A stretch of DNA of 24,134 nucleotides from a virus. A model generated the notes under the pieces. It was not told the origin of the DNA. It did not search any database and saw only the letters and a program-made list of their open reading frames with translations. This document shows, in pieces, positions 16,001-22,909 of this stretch; within the stretch, counting starts at the first letter, position 1, and every line of letters starts with the position of its first letter. The stretch is from IMG/VR virus record IMGVR_UViG_3300020125_000172, positions 1-24,134 of that record; one strand, given 5' to 3'. The position numbers and the translations under genes were made by a program.

Positions 16001-16756
16001 ATGTCAAAGAATCTACAACAGGTATTTGTTGCTAATCCGATTACAACAAATCAAAGCACCGATTTGATGTATTTCGCCCGGTCACCCTACGGAGCAACAG
16101 ATGATACAGGGATGACCTATGCGAATTTTGCACTCCAATTTGGTGCGCCATATACCGCCGCAGCATTGACAAAAACCGATGATACGAACGTAACTGTTAC
16201 ACTCGGTGGTACACCAGCAACCGCTCTCTTGCGTGCTACATCCTTGACATTAGGATGGACAGGAACGCTTGCCGTTGGCCGCGGTGGACTTGGAATCGCT
16301 ACCACACCAACCAACGGCCAAATACCTATCGGTAACGGAACCAACTATACGGCTGCCGCAATCACTCAAGGTACGGGTATCACTGTAACCAATGGTGCCG
16401 GCACAATAACGATTGCATCCACTGGCGTGGGTTCTACGGTCTGGAATGACGTTTCCGGTACTACCCAAGCCGCCGCAGTTAATAATGGATACATAATTTC
16501 AAACGCATCTCAAACAACGGTTACATTGCCCGCAACGGCTGCAGTTGGTAGTACTTTCGCTGTGGCAGGAAAAGGGGCAGCAGGATGGATCCTGCAAGCA
16601 AATACGGGACAGGTTATCCATTACGGAAGTTCCGCAACAACCTCAGCCGGATCTTTAACATCAACAAACCAATGGGATTCTGTAACGATTGTCTGCGTTA
16701 CAGCCAATACAACATTTGCCGTCATAGCATCACAGGGAATATTGACGGTAGCTTAA
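16001..16756 (+). CDS. tail fibre/adhesin-type protein (251 aa)
   Basis: AAGGAT precedes the ATG at 16001. The N terminus (MSKNLQQVFVANPITTNQSTDLMYFARSPYG) is a short attachment-like segment. The middle has the common fibre repeat GRGGLGIATTPTNGQIPIGNGTNYTAAAITQGTGITVTNG. The C-terminal 105 residues (from WNDVSGTTQAAAVNNGYIISNAS) form a beta domain ending in ASQGILTVA. This domain is clearly related to the C-terminal domain of the 17560-18204 gene, sharing NNGY, TLPA, GxGWxxxxxxGQxIHxGS, STNQxDSxxxVC, ANTT and QGILT(V/I)A. Likely a surface-exposed tail component. Confidence 0.7.
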   Translation: MSKNLQQVFVANPITTNQSTDLMYFARSPYGATDDTGMTYANFALQFGAPYTAAALTKTDDTNVTVTLGGTPATALLRATSLTLGWTGTLAVGRGGLGIATTPTNGQIPIGNGTNYTAAAITQGTGITVTNGAGTITIASTGVGSTVWNDVSGTTQAAAVNNGYIISNASQTTVTLPATAAVGSTFAVAGKGAAGWILQANTGQVIHYGSSATTSAGSLTSTNQWDSVTIVCVTANTTFAVIASQGILTVA

Positions 16757-17559: not shown

Positions 17560-18204
17560 ATGGCAACTACAGAAGAGATGTTCACATCATTGCCGACAGT
17601 ATCAAGCGCACAATTGACGGATATTATTTGCGCAGTACAGGGATATGTTAGCCCCTCTGTACTGGGATTGTCGGTACAGGAACCATTGCAGCAGATTTAC
17701 AATTTATTTCAAGCTAATATTATTTTGTTCAATTCTGGAAATCCGAATGGATTTGTTGCCGGCACGACCTATCAGTTTTGCTGGGATACGCTCGATCAGG
17801 ATTTATTTATCTGCACTACCTCAGGAACAGCTTTAACAGCTGTATGGACTAACATTAATTCAGGAAGTGACATATTCCAGTGGACAAATGTTACAGGCAC
17901 AAGCTTGGTCATGTCACAGAATAATGGATATGTAGCTAATAATGCGGGGCTTGTGACTTTAACATTACCAGCAGGATCAGCATTTGGTACAAACATTTCC
18001 ATTGTTGGAACCGGTGCTGGGGGATGGTTTATTGCTCAGTCAGCGGGTCAACAAATACATATTGGAAGTGTTTCTACGACATCAGGTGCTACAGGTTCAG
18101 TTGCATCAACTAATCAATATGATTCAATCAATCTTGTATGTACAGTAGCAAATACAACATGGGTGGCACGTGGTGGCCCACAGGGTATTTTGACAATCGC
18201 ATGA
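17560..18204 (+). CDS. tail fibre/adhesin-type protein, paralogous C terminus (214 aa)
   Basis: AAAAGGA precedes the ATG at 17560. The N-terminal 110 residues (MATTEEMFTSLPTVSSAQLTD...) differ from those of neighbouring genes and include QGYVSPSVLGLSVQEPLQQIYNLFQANI. The C-terminal part (from WTNVTGTSLVMSQNNGYVANN) matches the C-terminal domain of the 16001-16756 gene across its length and ends PQGILTIA. A duplication of one binding or trimerisation domain onto two stems is the simplest reading. Its stop overlaps the rusA start. Confidence 0.7.
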   Translation: MATTEEMFTSLPTVSSAQLTDIICAVQGYVSPSVLGLSVQEPLQQIYNLFQANIILFNSGNPNGFVAGTTYQFCWDTLDQDLFICTTSGTALTAVWTNINSGSDIFQWTNVTGTSLVMSQNNGYVANNAGLVTLTLPAGSAFGTNISIVGTGAGGWFIAQSAGQQIHIGSVSTTSGATGSVASTNQYDSINLVCTVANTTWVARGGPQGILTIA

Positions 18205-18548
18205 TTCAATTGGAACTACCATGGCCGCCTAGTATCAACCATTACTGGCGGCACACCAAAACAGGGCATTACATCAGCAAAGAAGGGAAAGCCTATCGTG
18301 AAATGGTTTTTTTCCATTGTCTTAAATCCAGAGATAAATTCAAGAAGGAGGACAGACTCTCAATCCATATCCAGGCATTCCCTCCGGATAAAAGAAAGCG
18401 TGACCTTGATAATGTGCTTAAGAGCCTCCTGGATGCGCTCCAGGAAGCAAGGGTATATCATGATGACAGTCAGATAGATCATATCTCTATCACGCGTAAT
18501 TTCTCTAAGGACGGTAAGGTAAAAATCCTCATCAACGCTATGAGCTAG
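18201..18548 (+). CDS. rusA: RusA-family Holliday junction resolvase (115 aa)
   Basis: I chose the ATG at 18201, which overlaps the previous stop as ATGA. An upstream extension to 18138 lies inside the fibre gene. The protein begins MIQLELPWPPSINHYWRHTKTG. It contains the RusA signature PPDKRKRDLDNVLKSLLDAL, then ARVYHDDSQIDHI, with the conserved Asp residues expected to bind metal for cutting four-way junctions. RusA normally serves recombination or resolves branched DNA before packaging. Here it is the last gene of the tail operon and meets the - strand SSB gene head-on, their stops sharing CTAG. Confidence 0.88.
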   Translation: MIQLELPWPPSINHYWRHTKTGHYISKEGKAYREMVFFHCLKSRDKFKKEDRLSIHIQAFPPDKRKRDLDNVLKSLLDALQEARVYHDDSQIDHISITRNFSKDGKVKILINAMS

Positions 18549-18937
18549 AACGGGCAATCATCGTCGTCAAATGCTTCAACCTCTTTAACCTCTTTTTTCG
18601 GAGCACTTTCAGCTTTGACTTTGGGAATGAACTTGATGTCATTGGCGCTAATTGAATAAATGTATTGGCCGGCACGTTCTCCGCTTTTAATCTCTTTATT
18701 CTGAATTTCACCAGTTACATAGATTAAGTCCCCTACGTGGACATATTTGGCAGCAACATCAGCAAGCTTGCTAAAGCAATTGACCTGGTGCCAAGTGGTC
18801 ATTTCCTGTGGGGTACCTGACGCATCCTTGTATTTCTTGCTGGTAGCAAGTGAAAGAACGGTAACATTCACCCCGCTCTTTGTGGTTTTGCTGTCCTTTT
18901 TACCTACACGACCCAATAATGTCCCTACGTTAATCAT
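18545..18937 (-). CDS. ssb: single-stranded DNA-binding protein (130 aa)
   Basis: The protein starts MINVGTLLGRVGKKDSKTTKSG, continues with VLSLATSKKYKD and TTWHQVNCFSKLADVAAKYVHVGDLIYVTGEI (the SSB OB-fold), and ends with a linker and the acidic tip FDDDDCPF. The tip corresponds to the DDDIPF-type tail that recruits partners. AAGGGG precedes the start, which shares one base with the recT stop (TAATG). It is the last gene of the leftward recombination operon and would coat ssDNA for RecT annealing and replication. Confidence 0.92.
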   Translation of the reverse strand: MINVGTLLGRVGKKDSKTTKSGVNVTVLSLATSKKYKDASGTPQEMTTWHQVNCFSKLADVAAKYVHVGDLIYVTGEIQNKEIKSGERAGQYIYSISANDIKFIPKVKAESAPKKEVKEVEAFDDDDCPF

Positions 18938-19788
18938 TAATTACCCCTTTCATTATCACCAGAAATATTAAGAACCTTTTTAAGCTTTTCAGTTTGATTC
19001 GATCCTTCAATCACGACGCCGCTTTCTTCTGAGCCCATGAAATTCATATCGAAGTCCTCAGATGCCGATGCCTTCATATCCTGAACGCCAATCTCTTGCT
19101 GTTCATCCAGGCTCACCGCTTTTTGCATTTCCACACTACAAGGCAGCCATTTGAAAAGTCGCCTTAAAACGGTCTTTTTAGCCATTTCCTCAAAGTGTGT
19201 AACCCATGGGCCGTTATCTTTGGACTTGGATGAATTACGGATATTATCAACCTCAGACTTGCTCATCACATCAAACTGGTGGCCGCCATCCTTCAAGAGA
19301 GCTACCGCATAAACCGCTATCAGGTTGCCCCGGTCATTCAGGGATGGTTTGTGTTTGATGTCTTCTTTCAAACCGAACTCATAGCTGAACTCATCATTCT
19401 CATAAACCGAGCGAGCAACCAGTGACACAATCTGTCCAGACCTACGCGCTAAGTCCAGAAATCCACGATAGCCTGGCATGAAGGTACATTCGTAAACACC
19501 TGTCTTATAGTTCTTAAAAGGTATTAAATAGCAGGAACCCATGATACCTGGTTCAAGACCAAGCTGGGATGCTTGCATAATCGATGCTATAAAGCTCATC
19601 GGGTCACATTGTTGAAGCATTGGGTTCTTTCGAAGTTCAGTCAGTGCGATACGTGTCATACGTTCCGTGGTCAAATGCTTTGGTAAACAGCGAGCTATTT
19701 CAGGTTTCATCTTATCAAGCATGCTGGCAACGGTTTGTTGCTTCTTTACTGGCATCTTGTCTTTTGTGTCTTCTATTACAGCACTCAT
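18937..19788 (-). CDS. recT: RecT-family ssDNA annealing recombinase (283 aa)
   Basis: The start has AGAGGGGAA upstream and overlaps the previous gene's stop (ATGA). RecT hallmarks appear in order: LDKMKPEIARCLPKHLTTERMTRIALTELRKNP near residues 25-58, SFIASIMQASQLGLEPG near 63-80, CYLIPFKN, FMPGYRGFLDLARRSG near 110, and WVTHFEEMAKKTVLRRLFKWLP near 195-215. It anneals complementary single strands made by the partner exonuclease. The operon also encodes a YqaJ-type exonuclease and SSB, giving a complete recombination module. Confidence 0.92.
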   Translation of the reverse strand: MSAVIEDTKDKMPVKKQQTVASMLDKMKPEIARCLPKHLTTERMTRIALTELRKNPMLQQCDPMSFIASIMQASQLGLEPGIMGSCYLIPFKNYKTGVYECTFMPGYRGFLDLARRSGQIVSLVARSVYENDEFSYEFGLKEDIKHKPSLNDRGNLIAVYAVALLKDGGHQFDVMSKSEVDNIRNSSKSKDNGPWVTHFEEMAKKTVLRRLFKWLPCSVEMQKAVSLDEQQEIGVQDMKASASEDFDMNFMGSEESGVVIEGSNQTEKLKKVLNISGDNERGN

Positions 19789-19958: not shown

Positions 19959-20179
19959 GATTCACCTAAAAGTTTTTTTCGTTCCATTTTGAAATCTTCG
20001 AGCTGTCTGTTTGAGGATTCAAAATAATGATCCCATCTTCCTTCATTATAAATATTCAAAATGTATTTTTTCAAACACTTGGTGGTTTCTTCCATGGTAA
20101 ATTTAAAATCAAAAAGGTTTTGTATTGCTGATTCAAATTTTTCCGAATTCAAGAATTCATCTACTGATATTTTAGTCAT
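19955..20179 (-). CDS. small hypothetical protein after the exonuclease gene (74 aa)
   Basis: Its start shares one base with the exonuclease stop (TAATG) and its stop overlaps the next start as ATGA. The product (MTKISVDEFLNSEKFESAIQ...) is helical and charged. It has a Cys at residue 35 and an end FKMERKKLLGES. The tight coupling on both sides argues that it is expressed together with the exonuclease. Function unknown. Confidence 0.65.
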   Translation of the reverse strand: MTKISVDEFLNSEKFESAIQNLFDFKFTMEETTKCLKKYILNIYNEGRWDHYFESSNRQLEDFKMERKKLLGES

Positions 20180-21018
20180 TAGTTCATCCCTTTCAACAGA
20201 AACGTACGTGACCCGCGTTTGTTAGCCTTCCATGATACGATAGGTTTACCGCTTTCATCGGTGAGACACTCAGCATCTTTCATAAATTGCATGATGTTAA
20301 ACTTGTACTTGTCCTCAACCTCACTCAATTGTTTTATTTTAAATCTAGTATCAAACAGCGTTGCTAATTGTGCTTTCACTTTTTCATCAACTGTTAAGGT
20401 CTTTTCAGGATCATGTTTCGGGAACATCAAACGCAAGTCAACCTGATTAATGGGTTGTGGTGGAGTACGAGTTTGTACGCATTCCCAGAACTTACGGGCA
20501 GCTTCAATGACAAATGCTTCCAGTTCAGCATCACGGGTATATTTGAATTCACGATAATCAAAGCCACCTATGAGTACAGCAATGTAGGCACAGTCTGCGT
20601 TCATAACTGCGCAGTAATGGGCTACCTGGACAAGATACGGCATAGGTATGACATCTGAACCATCTTCGCCCCATTGGTGCGCCATAAAAGAATTTGAGCA
20701 CTTTACTTCCAGTACTGCCTTAAGAGATGGAATATAGCCGTCAACATTACCACGTAGAAAATCGTAAACAGGATGAACAACGGCATCGGGCGTTTCAACC
20801 GTAACATTATTTCGTTTAGCAAATTCATCACGAACAATCCCTTCTAGTTGGTGTCCCCAGTATTGCAACGGTGTTTCTTCGTAATCAGATTCAACTTCAC
20901 CAATCTTTTCAAGATAAAGCTGATACGGGGTTTTGTAGCTGGATAAACCAAGTATGATTGGCATGTCACTTCCACCAATACCGAGTTTTCGTTCTATTAA
21001 TTGTTGTTCAGTAAGCAT
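20179..21018 (-). CDS. YqaJ-like viral recombinase/exonuclease (279 aa)
   Basis: I chose the start at 21018 (MLTEQQLIERKLGIGGSDMP...) because GCGGAGAA lies just upstream. The frame extends to 21054 without a ribosome site. The PD-(D/E)XK nuclease core is visible: GIGGSD near residues 15-20, WGHQLEGIVRDEF near 54-66, the Asp of RGNVDGYI near 91, and the catalytic LEVKCS near 104. This is the lambda exonuclease/YqaJ fold, which digests duplex ends to leave strands for RecT. It is the first gene of the leftward operon, transcribed from the promoter at 21101-21140. Confidence 0.88.
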   Translation of the reverse strand: MLTEQQLIERKLGIGGSDMPIILGLSSYKTPYQLYLEKIGEVESDYEETPLQYWGHQLEGIVRDEFAKRNNVTVETPDAVVHPVYDFLRGNVDGYIPSLKAVLEVKCSNSFMAHQWGEDGSDVIPMPYLVQVAHYCAVMNADCAYIAVLIGGFDYREFKYTRDAELEAFVIEAARKFWECVQTRTPPQPINQVDLRLMFPKHDPEKTLTVDEKVKAQLATLFDTRFKIKQLSEVEDKYKFNIMQFMKDAECLTDESGKPIVSWKANKRGSRTFLLKGMN

Positions 21019-21100
21019 TGCGTTCTCCGCGTTTATAAAAATATAGATATGCACAAAAAAACGATTCCATGTTCATATTTAGCCTTCAATTCATTTAAAG

Positions 21101-21140
21101 GATTGACACATTATGCGCAATCGATTATAGTTTGTCAATC
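21101..21140. promoter_or_regulatory. symmetric overlapping divergent promoters with 8-bp inverted repeat
   Basis: + strand promoter: TTGACA (21103-21108), 17-bp spacer, TATAGT (21126-21131). - strand promoter: TTGACA (complement of 21133-21138), 17-bp spacer, CATAAT (complement of 21110-21115). The two -35 boxes form the arms of a perfect inverted repeat GATTGACA/TGTCAATC spanning 40 bp, so each -10 box lies within the other promoter's spacer. They drive the early rightward and leftward recombination operons. An alternative - strand pair, TTTGCA with 17 bp to a perfect TATAAT, overlaps as well. Inside the dyad are palindromes TGCGCA (21114-21119) and AATCGATT (21119-21126). Confidence 0.8.
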
Positions 21141-21164
21141 AAATTCTGCAAAAAGAGGTAAAAC

Positions 21165-21961: not shown

Positions 21962-22005
21962 AACACTCAGGGCTTTGGCTTACCTGAATGTTGCTGGGCT
22001 TTTTT
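21962..22005 (+). terminator. rho-independent-like terminator before the replication genes
   Basis: AACACTCAGG (21962-21971) and CCTGAATGTT (21983-21992) pair along ten positions with one C-A mismatch and an 11-nt loop. T6 follows at 22000-22005 after seven bases. The gap between stem and T-run is longer than usual, so it may be partial. It would limit entry of early transcripts into the replication genes. Confidence 0.45.
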
Positions 22006-22045
22006 GTCATCCATAAAGCTCAACAAACTACGGACGAATTATATC

Positions 22046-22909
22046 ATGATAAATCAATTCAATTCAAACATTGCTGTCAAATTCAACATTAATACCGCTA
22101 TATTTGTTCAAGAACTCGCCCAGTGGACATTTTATAACCTTGTTAATAAACATAATATCCATGATGGTTTATGTTGGTCTTTTAATTCGCTTGAAGCTTA
22201 TACAGAAATATTTCCTTATTGGACACGCCGGCAACTTGAAACAGTGATTAATAATGCAATAAAAGATGGATTGGTGGCAAAAGGTAATTATAACAAACAT
22301 AAATATGACAGAACCTGTTGGTATGCTCTTACCTATGAAGCTTTGTCATATTTCCCTGAATTGACCAAAGAGACATACTTAATAACCCTTTCGCAGTCCA
22401 TTTCACAAAATGGGGAACTGTACGACAAAAATCTGACTCATGACGAAAACGCGTATCACCATTTCACAAAACTGTGTGAGGCTTTTCACAGAACTGTGAC
22501 AGCTATACCATCTACTTTTAACTCATCTAATGTTTTATCTAATAAAAAGACATTAGATAAAACCCCATCAGGAGACGGTGATGCCGGCAACCCTGATATT
22601 CAACCAAAGCTTGATTCTAAAAAGTCCCTTGATTTACAAGATCTGATTTCGGACAATCCTCACGATATTCCAAAACCCATGCTTGAAGATTGGGTAATTA
22701 TCAGGAAGGGCAAGAAAGCAAAGATAACCAGAACAGCATGGTTAAAAGTGAACAAAACTCTCTCAGAGATTGAAAAGGCATATAAAATTAAGCCGATAGA
22801 GTCTTTCGAAAGGATGGTTGCCAATTGTTGGCTATCACTGGAAACAAAGTATTTCAAGGATGAATCAAAAAGCAACGGATCGCATAACTCAATAAAACCC
22901 TCACTGTAA
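22046..22909 (+). CDS. phage replication initiator with N-terminal winged helix (287 aa)
   Basis: I chose the ATG at 22046. The upstream TTG at 22004 lies in the terminator T-run. The ribosome site is weak (CGGAC). Residues about 10-105 resemble the winged-helix DNA-binding domain of phage and plasmid replication proteins: NTAIFVQELAQWTFYNLV, NIHDGLCWSFNSLEAYTEIFPYWTRRQLETVINNAIKDGLV, then NKHKYDRTCWYALT. A variable linker (about 115-210) is followed by a C-terminal domain with DWVIIRKGKKAKITRTAWLKVNKTL and ERMVANCWLSLE. It should bind the origin, probably within its own linker-coding DNA, and load the helicase encoded next. Confidence 0.75.
   Translation: MINQFNSNIAVKFNINTAIFVQELAQWTFYNLVNKHNIHDGLCWSFNSLEAYTEIFPYWTRRQLETVINNAIKDGLVAKGNYNKHKYDRTCWYALTYEALSYFPELTKETYLITLSQSISQNGELYDKNLTHDENAYHHFTKLCEAFHRTVTAIPSTFNSSNVLSNKKTLDKTPSGDGDAGNPDIQPKLDSKKSLDLQDLISDNPHDIPKPMLEDWVIIRKGKKAKITRTAWLKVNKTLSEIEKAYKIKPIESFERMVANCWLSLETKYFKDESKSNGSHNSIKPSL
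22398..22563. other. candidate replication origin inside the initiator gene
   Basis: Direct repeats: CCATTTCACAAAA occurs at 22398-22410 and 22459-22471. TTTCACA(A/G)AACTGTG occurs at 22462-22476 and 22484-22498, 22 bp apart, or about two helical turns. The second copy is itself a near-palindrome (TCACAG-AA-CTGTGA). An AT-rich stretch follows, with a perfect 12-bp inverted repeat GTTTTATCTAAT/ATTAGATAAAAC (22532-22543, 22552-22563). Iterons next to AT-rich DNA in the linker of the initiator gene mirror lambda ori within gene O. Confidence 0.45.

Follow-up and report, generated by a model that had tools for sequence, protein, structure and literature searches.

The locus analysed here raises the question of how early transcription of a phage can be divided between a leftward and a rightward operon when the promoters of both appear to be packed into the same 40 bp. 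The whole stretch of DNA analysed (the window) is a 24,134-base IMG/VR virus record, a fragment, and its positions 21101-21140 read GATTGACACATTATGCGCAATCGATTATAGTTTGTCAATC (Table 1). A sequence-only reading had described TTGACA-17-TATAGT on the plus strand and TTGACA-17-CATAAT on the minus strand, and the letters at 21103-21138 bear this out; each of the two predicted promoters matches the sigma-70 consensus at 11 of 12 positions. The -35 boxes lie, as had been proposed, in the arms of an inverted repeat with perfect arms of 8 bp, GATTGACA (21101-21108) and TGTCAATC (21133-21140). The coordinates of the -10 boxes (21110-21115 and 21126-21131) likewise place each of them inside the spacer of the opposite promoter, the cores interleaving within 36 bp and the -10 boxes remaining separate, with 10 bp between them. 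Taking the transcription start as 7 nt past position -7, starts were predicted at 21138 (plus strand) and 21103 (minus strand), 35 bp apart, with transcripts that diverge without overlap. The label 'face-to-face' given to the pair was therefore wrong: because the predicted transcripts diverge, this is an overlapping divergent pair and not a face-to-face pair in the style of P2/186. Judged by sequence, spacing and gene orientation, the window element is predicted to be an overlapping divergent sigma-70 promoter pair.

Table 1. Positions of the promoter element, the flanking genes and the unpaired promoters of relatives (window coordinates unless a relative is named).
Feature	Position	Strand	Remarks
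Rightward promoter, -35 box TTGACA	21103..21108	+	also holds predicted leftward start 21103
Rightward promoter, -10 box TATAGT	21126..21131	+	17-bp spacer to its -35 box
Leftward promoter, -35 box TTGACA	21133..21138	-	also holds predicted rightward start 21138
Leftward promoter, -10 box CATAAT	21110..21115	-	17-bp spacer to its -35 box
Entire symmetric element	21101..21140	.	8-bp perfect arms; conserved unit 21103-21138 (36 bp)
YqaJ/RecE-like exonuclease	20179..21018	-	first leftward gene; start ATG 21018; predicted leader ~85 nt
RecT-like annealing protein	18937..19788	-	leftward operon
Single-strand DNA-binding protein (SSB)	18545..18937	-	leftward operon
Cro-like regulator, 59 aa	21165..21344	+	first rightward gene; AGAGG ribosome site 21154-21158
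Replication initiation protein	22004..22909	+	rightward operon; PHROG 11233, E=3e-25
Unpaired CATAAT promoter, L150	12582	-	
Unpaired CATAAT promoter, L154	11440	+	
Unpaired CATAAT promoter, L155	1644	-	
Unpaired CATAAT promoter, L161	10416	+	

The genes around the element diverge on both sides; wherever a related locus contains both genes, exo runs leftward and cro rightward, and ribosome sites precede the divergent genes on either side. This gene order agrees with the earlier proposal that the promoters serve recombination genes on the left, here YqaJ exonuclease, RecT and SSB, and Cro/replication genes on the right; the leftward operon also contains two small proteins between the exonuclease and RecT. 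The ATG start of the exonuclease was favoured over a GTG at 21054, since the alignments to most relatives begin at residue 10-13. On the other side, the Cro-like gene begins 25 bp from the 40-bp element, as had been read, and the predicted rightward leader from 21138 to the cro ATG measures 27 nt. A search of the window for Rfam curated RNA families found none. Further left, 16001-16756 and 17560-18204 encode structural-looking proteins with similar ends of ~60 residues (GWILQANTGQVIHYGS... and GWFIAQSAGQQIHIGS...), which suggests, from these sequences, a duplicated tail-type domain.

Could such a mirrored pair arise by chance? With the geometry fixed, the expected count of matches at 22/24 or better is 1.9e-6 per window, and the best score found in 100 Markov-simulated windows was 17; on these grounds a chance origin was rejected. 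Across the 24-kb window only three sites score 11/12 with a spacer of 16-18, and two of them are the mirrored pair. When all IMG/VR contigs were scanned, the strict two-strand 36-bp pattern was present in 31, 26 of them in the phage family, and bacterial and archaeal genomes (257 Gb) returned 20 matches, against an estimated few by chance at typical base composition. One of these 20 (L097) is a stray contig of the phage family, binned with an 'uncultured Bacteroidetes' genome, possibly through a binning error. Most other cellular matches are isolated and several adjoin regulator genes (VapB-like, HxlR-type and LacI-like, names that are our reading of the translations and not profile matches). 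In Acidobacteria the pattern precedes vapBC-like genes, and in Nitrospirae/Thermodesulfovibrionales it separates an HxlR-type regulator from a ferredoxin-type gene (both under the loci L093, L101, L103; L095, L102, L104), and these vapBC-like and HxlR-type occurrences are independent cellular cases of the mirrored pattern. No cultured phage with the mirrored element was found: BLAST of a 44-bp consensus for cultured homologues gave partial, chance-level matches only, the best matches of the exonuclease to phages were below 60% identity, and the protein in the coat position had no match to cultured phages.

Exonuclease similarity yielded 40 related loci and a Cro profile 42, both searches being independent of the element, and 27 dereplicated exo/cro junctions from IMG/VR formed the comparison set. 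Counting a promoter as kept when it matched at 9/12 or better, the expectation that relatives would conserve both promoters held in 24 of the 27 lineages; the other three, L127, L135 and L136, kept a single promoter, always the leftward one, a finding that by the earlier reading's own terms speaks against it in this minority, and none kept the rightward promoter alone. Conservation of the dyad, which had been suggested as a further point to compare, was found for the 36-bp core 21103-21138 and did not extend to the outer two bases of the arms (GA/TC), which vary in relatives. The 36-bp frame is intact in 26/27 lineages; in L128, one inserted base lengthens the rightward spacer to 18 and leaves the leftward spacer at 17. 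The nesting is not indispensable, since the rightward promoter was lost there in 3/27 lineages.

Changes per site were counted in 26 lineages on the exonuclease tree, which is weakly resolved in places. The four hexamers together averaged 2.25 changes per site, whereas other sites averaged 9.7 (P 7.5e-11), and taken singly each hexamer was slower than the rest (P 2e-5 to 1e-3), all P values being approximate because the lineages are related. Recombination at the exo/cro junction is likely, since Cro subgroups are discordant with the exonuclease tree, and the contrast between hexamers and other sites is independent of it. Mean changes per site were 1.8 and 4.2 for the rightward -35 and -10 boxes and 0.17 and 2.8 for the leftward ones, compared with 8.2 in the central spacer, 11.1 in the upstream flank and 9.8 at cro third codon positions; the leader flanks evolve at neutral-like rates. 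Site by site, the rightward -35 box (21103-21108) had 0, 1, 1, 1, 2 and 6 changes, and the leftward -35 box (21133-21138) had 1, 0, 0, 0, 0 and 0 and is practically invariant. Within the rightward -10 box, positions -12, -11 and -7 changed once each and -9/-8 vary freely; within the leftward -10 box, -11A and -7T are invariant and -9 varies freely. This pattern in the -10 boxes, with -11A/-7T fixed and tolerated sites variable, is in terms of sequence the signature of sigma-70 recognition. The constrained rightward -10 box is independent evidence of a second promoter because it is sited in the leftward spacer. Collectively, the comparative data indicated that these are very likely two real promoters and supported strong selection in the relatives on both -35/-10 pairs and their spacing.

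The leftward -10 box carries C and not the consensus T at -12 (window 21115) in 24/26 lineages; this C is an unfavourable letter, and the rightward -10 box keeps T at -12. A further TTGACA-17-CATAAT promoter, unpaired and also with the odd C at -12, was seen in near-full-length relatives ~5-8 kb past cro and aimed back (Table 1). The L154 copy is very similar to the leftward half of the early element (TTGACAAA.T.TAACGAA.TATACATAATGT). A back-to-back order, with the -35 boxes inside and the -10 boxes outside, was observed in L142, L143, L034 and L039. The first two are distant Cro relatives with separate promoters (L142 with an exonuclease, L143 with none seen nearby), and in L034 and L039 no cro gene adjoins the pair.

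The symmetry of the element might have another origin. The dyad could serve chiefly as the operator of a dimeric regulator, Cro or another, with the mirrored promoter as a by-product and transcription in one direction. Such a role would fit the cellular 36-bp patterns, which lie mainly beside regulator genes (VapB-like antitoxin, HxlR-type, LacI-like) and in some cases have a gene on one side only, and it would fit the conservation of the TGTCAA arm and of T30 beyond the needs of a -35 box. However, the arms are unequally conserved, the sixth base of the plus-strand arm having changed 6 times and its mirror base once; conservation ends at the hexamers, skips the spacer and shows sigma-70-like tolerance within the -10 boxes; the rightward -10 box is constrained although it lies outside the dyad arms; and both sides have genes in need of a promoter. 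We consider the operator explanation improbable.

A candidate regulator for such an operator is encoded next to the element. The Cro-like protein matches PHROG 409 (E=1e-12); as a single protein it reaches 25 bits against Pfam P22_Cro, under the cut-off of 30.2, and the profile of its family matches P22 Cro (1RZS, E=2.7e-6) and N15 Cro (2HIN, E=0.003). When three Cro subgroups were scanned for dyads, the preferred centre was element position 23.5, with TGNCNAAT-N8-ATTNGNCA spanning 24 bp (positions 12-35). This candidate was strong and clear in one subgroup alone (the SRQYV-helix group) and matched the window at chance level, and the 17 bp between its half-sites would suit a small dimer badly. 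The scan over the three subgroups and the window found no convincing Cro operator. The dyad was also considered as the reason for the conserved C at -12, an explanation dropped since the unpaired promoter of the same phages is CATAAT too. In L141, a perfect 12-bp inverted repeat, AATATCATTTGT-caac-ACAAATGATATT, lies just upstream of the cro start and covers the rightward -10 box, the leftward -35 box and the rightward start; its sequence makes it a candidate Cro operator in that phage. An extra HTH_3 regulator was noted in two relatives, L036 (directly behind cro) and L082-L084. A role for the Cro-like protein as modulator of both promoters is plausible; repression by it is speculative.

We think it likely that the element is a hub of early transcription in a lytic-looking phage family, in which two strong outward sigma-70 promoters within 36 bp would be occupied by polymerase exclusively and divide early transcription between left and right. 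From their sequences we infer that both promoters are active. Each -35 box would double as the start site of the opposite promoter, and host RNA polymerase would occupy the 36-bp site in a single orientation at any time. Steric exclusion of two polymerases follows from this geometry; we strongly infer that exclusion is mutual, and polymerase probably must pick one direction at a time. Each firing would then serve the exonuclease, RecT and SSB on the left or Cro and replication on the right, in a ratio set by relative promoter strength. At a later stage a single regulator, most likely the Cro-like product, could silence both directions by binding at any point of the 36 bp. Polymerase exclusion at overlapping promoters is established elsewhere (PMC4207663; PMC12825309), and competition appears only with strong promoters (PMC12825309), in keeping with the element, where both -35 boxes are consensus. 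Weighing against this reading are the three lineages without the rightward promoter, the separate back-to-back promoters of L142 and L143, the C at -12 of the leftward promoter and the failure of the dyad scan to yield a convincing Cro operator.

The same mutual exclusion given by the geometry, together with a Cro-like gene placed first on the right, might instead support a bistable developmental switch (lytic/lysogenic or early-left/early-right) built on polymerase competition and Cro. Overlapping promoters form a switch only if a regulator acts differently on each (PMC4207663). Among 19 near-full-length relatives, tyrosine integrase PF00589 was found in none (the control was positive in 14/14) and a Peptidase_S24 repressor in none; a serine recombinase of the resolvase family was present in two (L147 and L148), and HTH_3 regulators in 2/19. 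Within the window there is no gene between exo and cro, hence no cI there. These counts of integrase, S24 repressor and serine recombinase made a lysogeny switch unlikely, and both operons encode lytic early functions, which leaves a bistable switch of either kind very improbable. That the leftward promoter alone is selected, the rightward match persisting through common descent and because it overlaps the leftward start region, would suit the nearly invariant leftward -35 box and the lineages with the leftward promoter only (three, against none with the rightward only), but is the least credible explanation of all given the single changes at rightward -12, -11 and -7 against 8.2 per site in the remaining leftward spacer and a rightward -10 box kept in 24/27 lineages.

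With neither an S24-type repressor nor a tyrosine integrase found among the 19 near-full-length relatives, the two outward promoters are better read as an early lytic divider than as a lysogeny switch. Their arrangement has several partial counterparts. The E. coli bio operator-promoter, under BirA control and serving cellular metabolism, is a dyad of ~40 bp that lies between divergent operons and in which two promoters overlap and diverge; the element resembles it in dyad size and divergent overlap, a likeness of described layout. In lambda, cI lies between pL and pR, which are separate promoters. The phage region shares with the lambda/P22 early region a leftward recombination operon, a rightward Cro-replication operon and a putatively P22-like Cro, whereas it has no cI in between and its counterparts of pL and pR are fused in 36 bp. 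The lytic and lysogenic promoters of lambdoid phages have been described as back-to-back (PMC7498355). The pR/pL pair of P2/186, regulated by a small DNA-binding protein, also sets two opposed phage promoters close together, but these face each other 40-60 bp apart and separate lytic from lysogenic transcription (PMC7498355), whereas the promoters of the element diverge and both are early lytic. Pc/Pr of pLS20 likewise overlap and diverge, are flanked on one side by a regulator gene and let polymerase exclude its rival, as polymerase would at the element; unlike the element, where both promoters are near consensus, they differ greatly in strength and involve multiple Rco operators and DNA looping (PMC4207663). 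The element departs from them in its symmetry too.

Bacterial bidirectional promoters in E. coli and Salmonella share a symmetric -10 box, and their starts are 7-25 bp apart, mostly 18 (PMC12825309, PMC10268837); five that were tested showed no competition at basal level (PMC12825309). Like them, the element is pseudo-symmetric and is predicted to engage polymerase in one orientation or the other, each excluding its opposite, and to yield divergent RNAs. Unlike them, it has separate -10 boxes, consensus -35 boxes and conservation across a virus family. The predicted starts 35 bp apart and the unshared -10 boxes place it outside this class, although by analogy it would work like a bidirectional promoter.

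A more far-reaching possibility, which we regard as rather doubtful, is that the exact 36-bp mirror acts as an 'orientation divider', in which competition alone would couple the recombination operon of a lytic phage to its replication operon in a fixed ratio with little noise, the partition needing no dedicated regulator. Known overlapping divergent promoters are for the most part isolated examples or belong to the type with a shared -10 box, where competition can scarcely be seen at basal level (PMC12825309). What is new, on comparison of the sequences, is a mirrored overlapping divergent pair maintained across an uncultured phage family, in more than 20 diverged lineages. The two dozen or so diverged versions, together with the half-lost lineages and the relatives with separate promoters, constitute a comparative set on selection for polymerase competition, and the mirrored element gives phages a compact arrangement in place of separate pL and pR.
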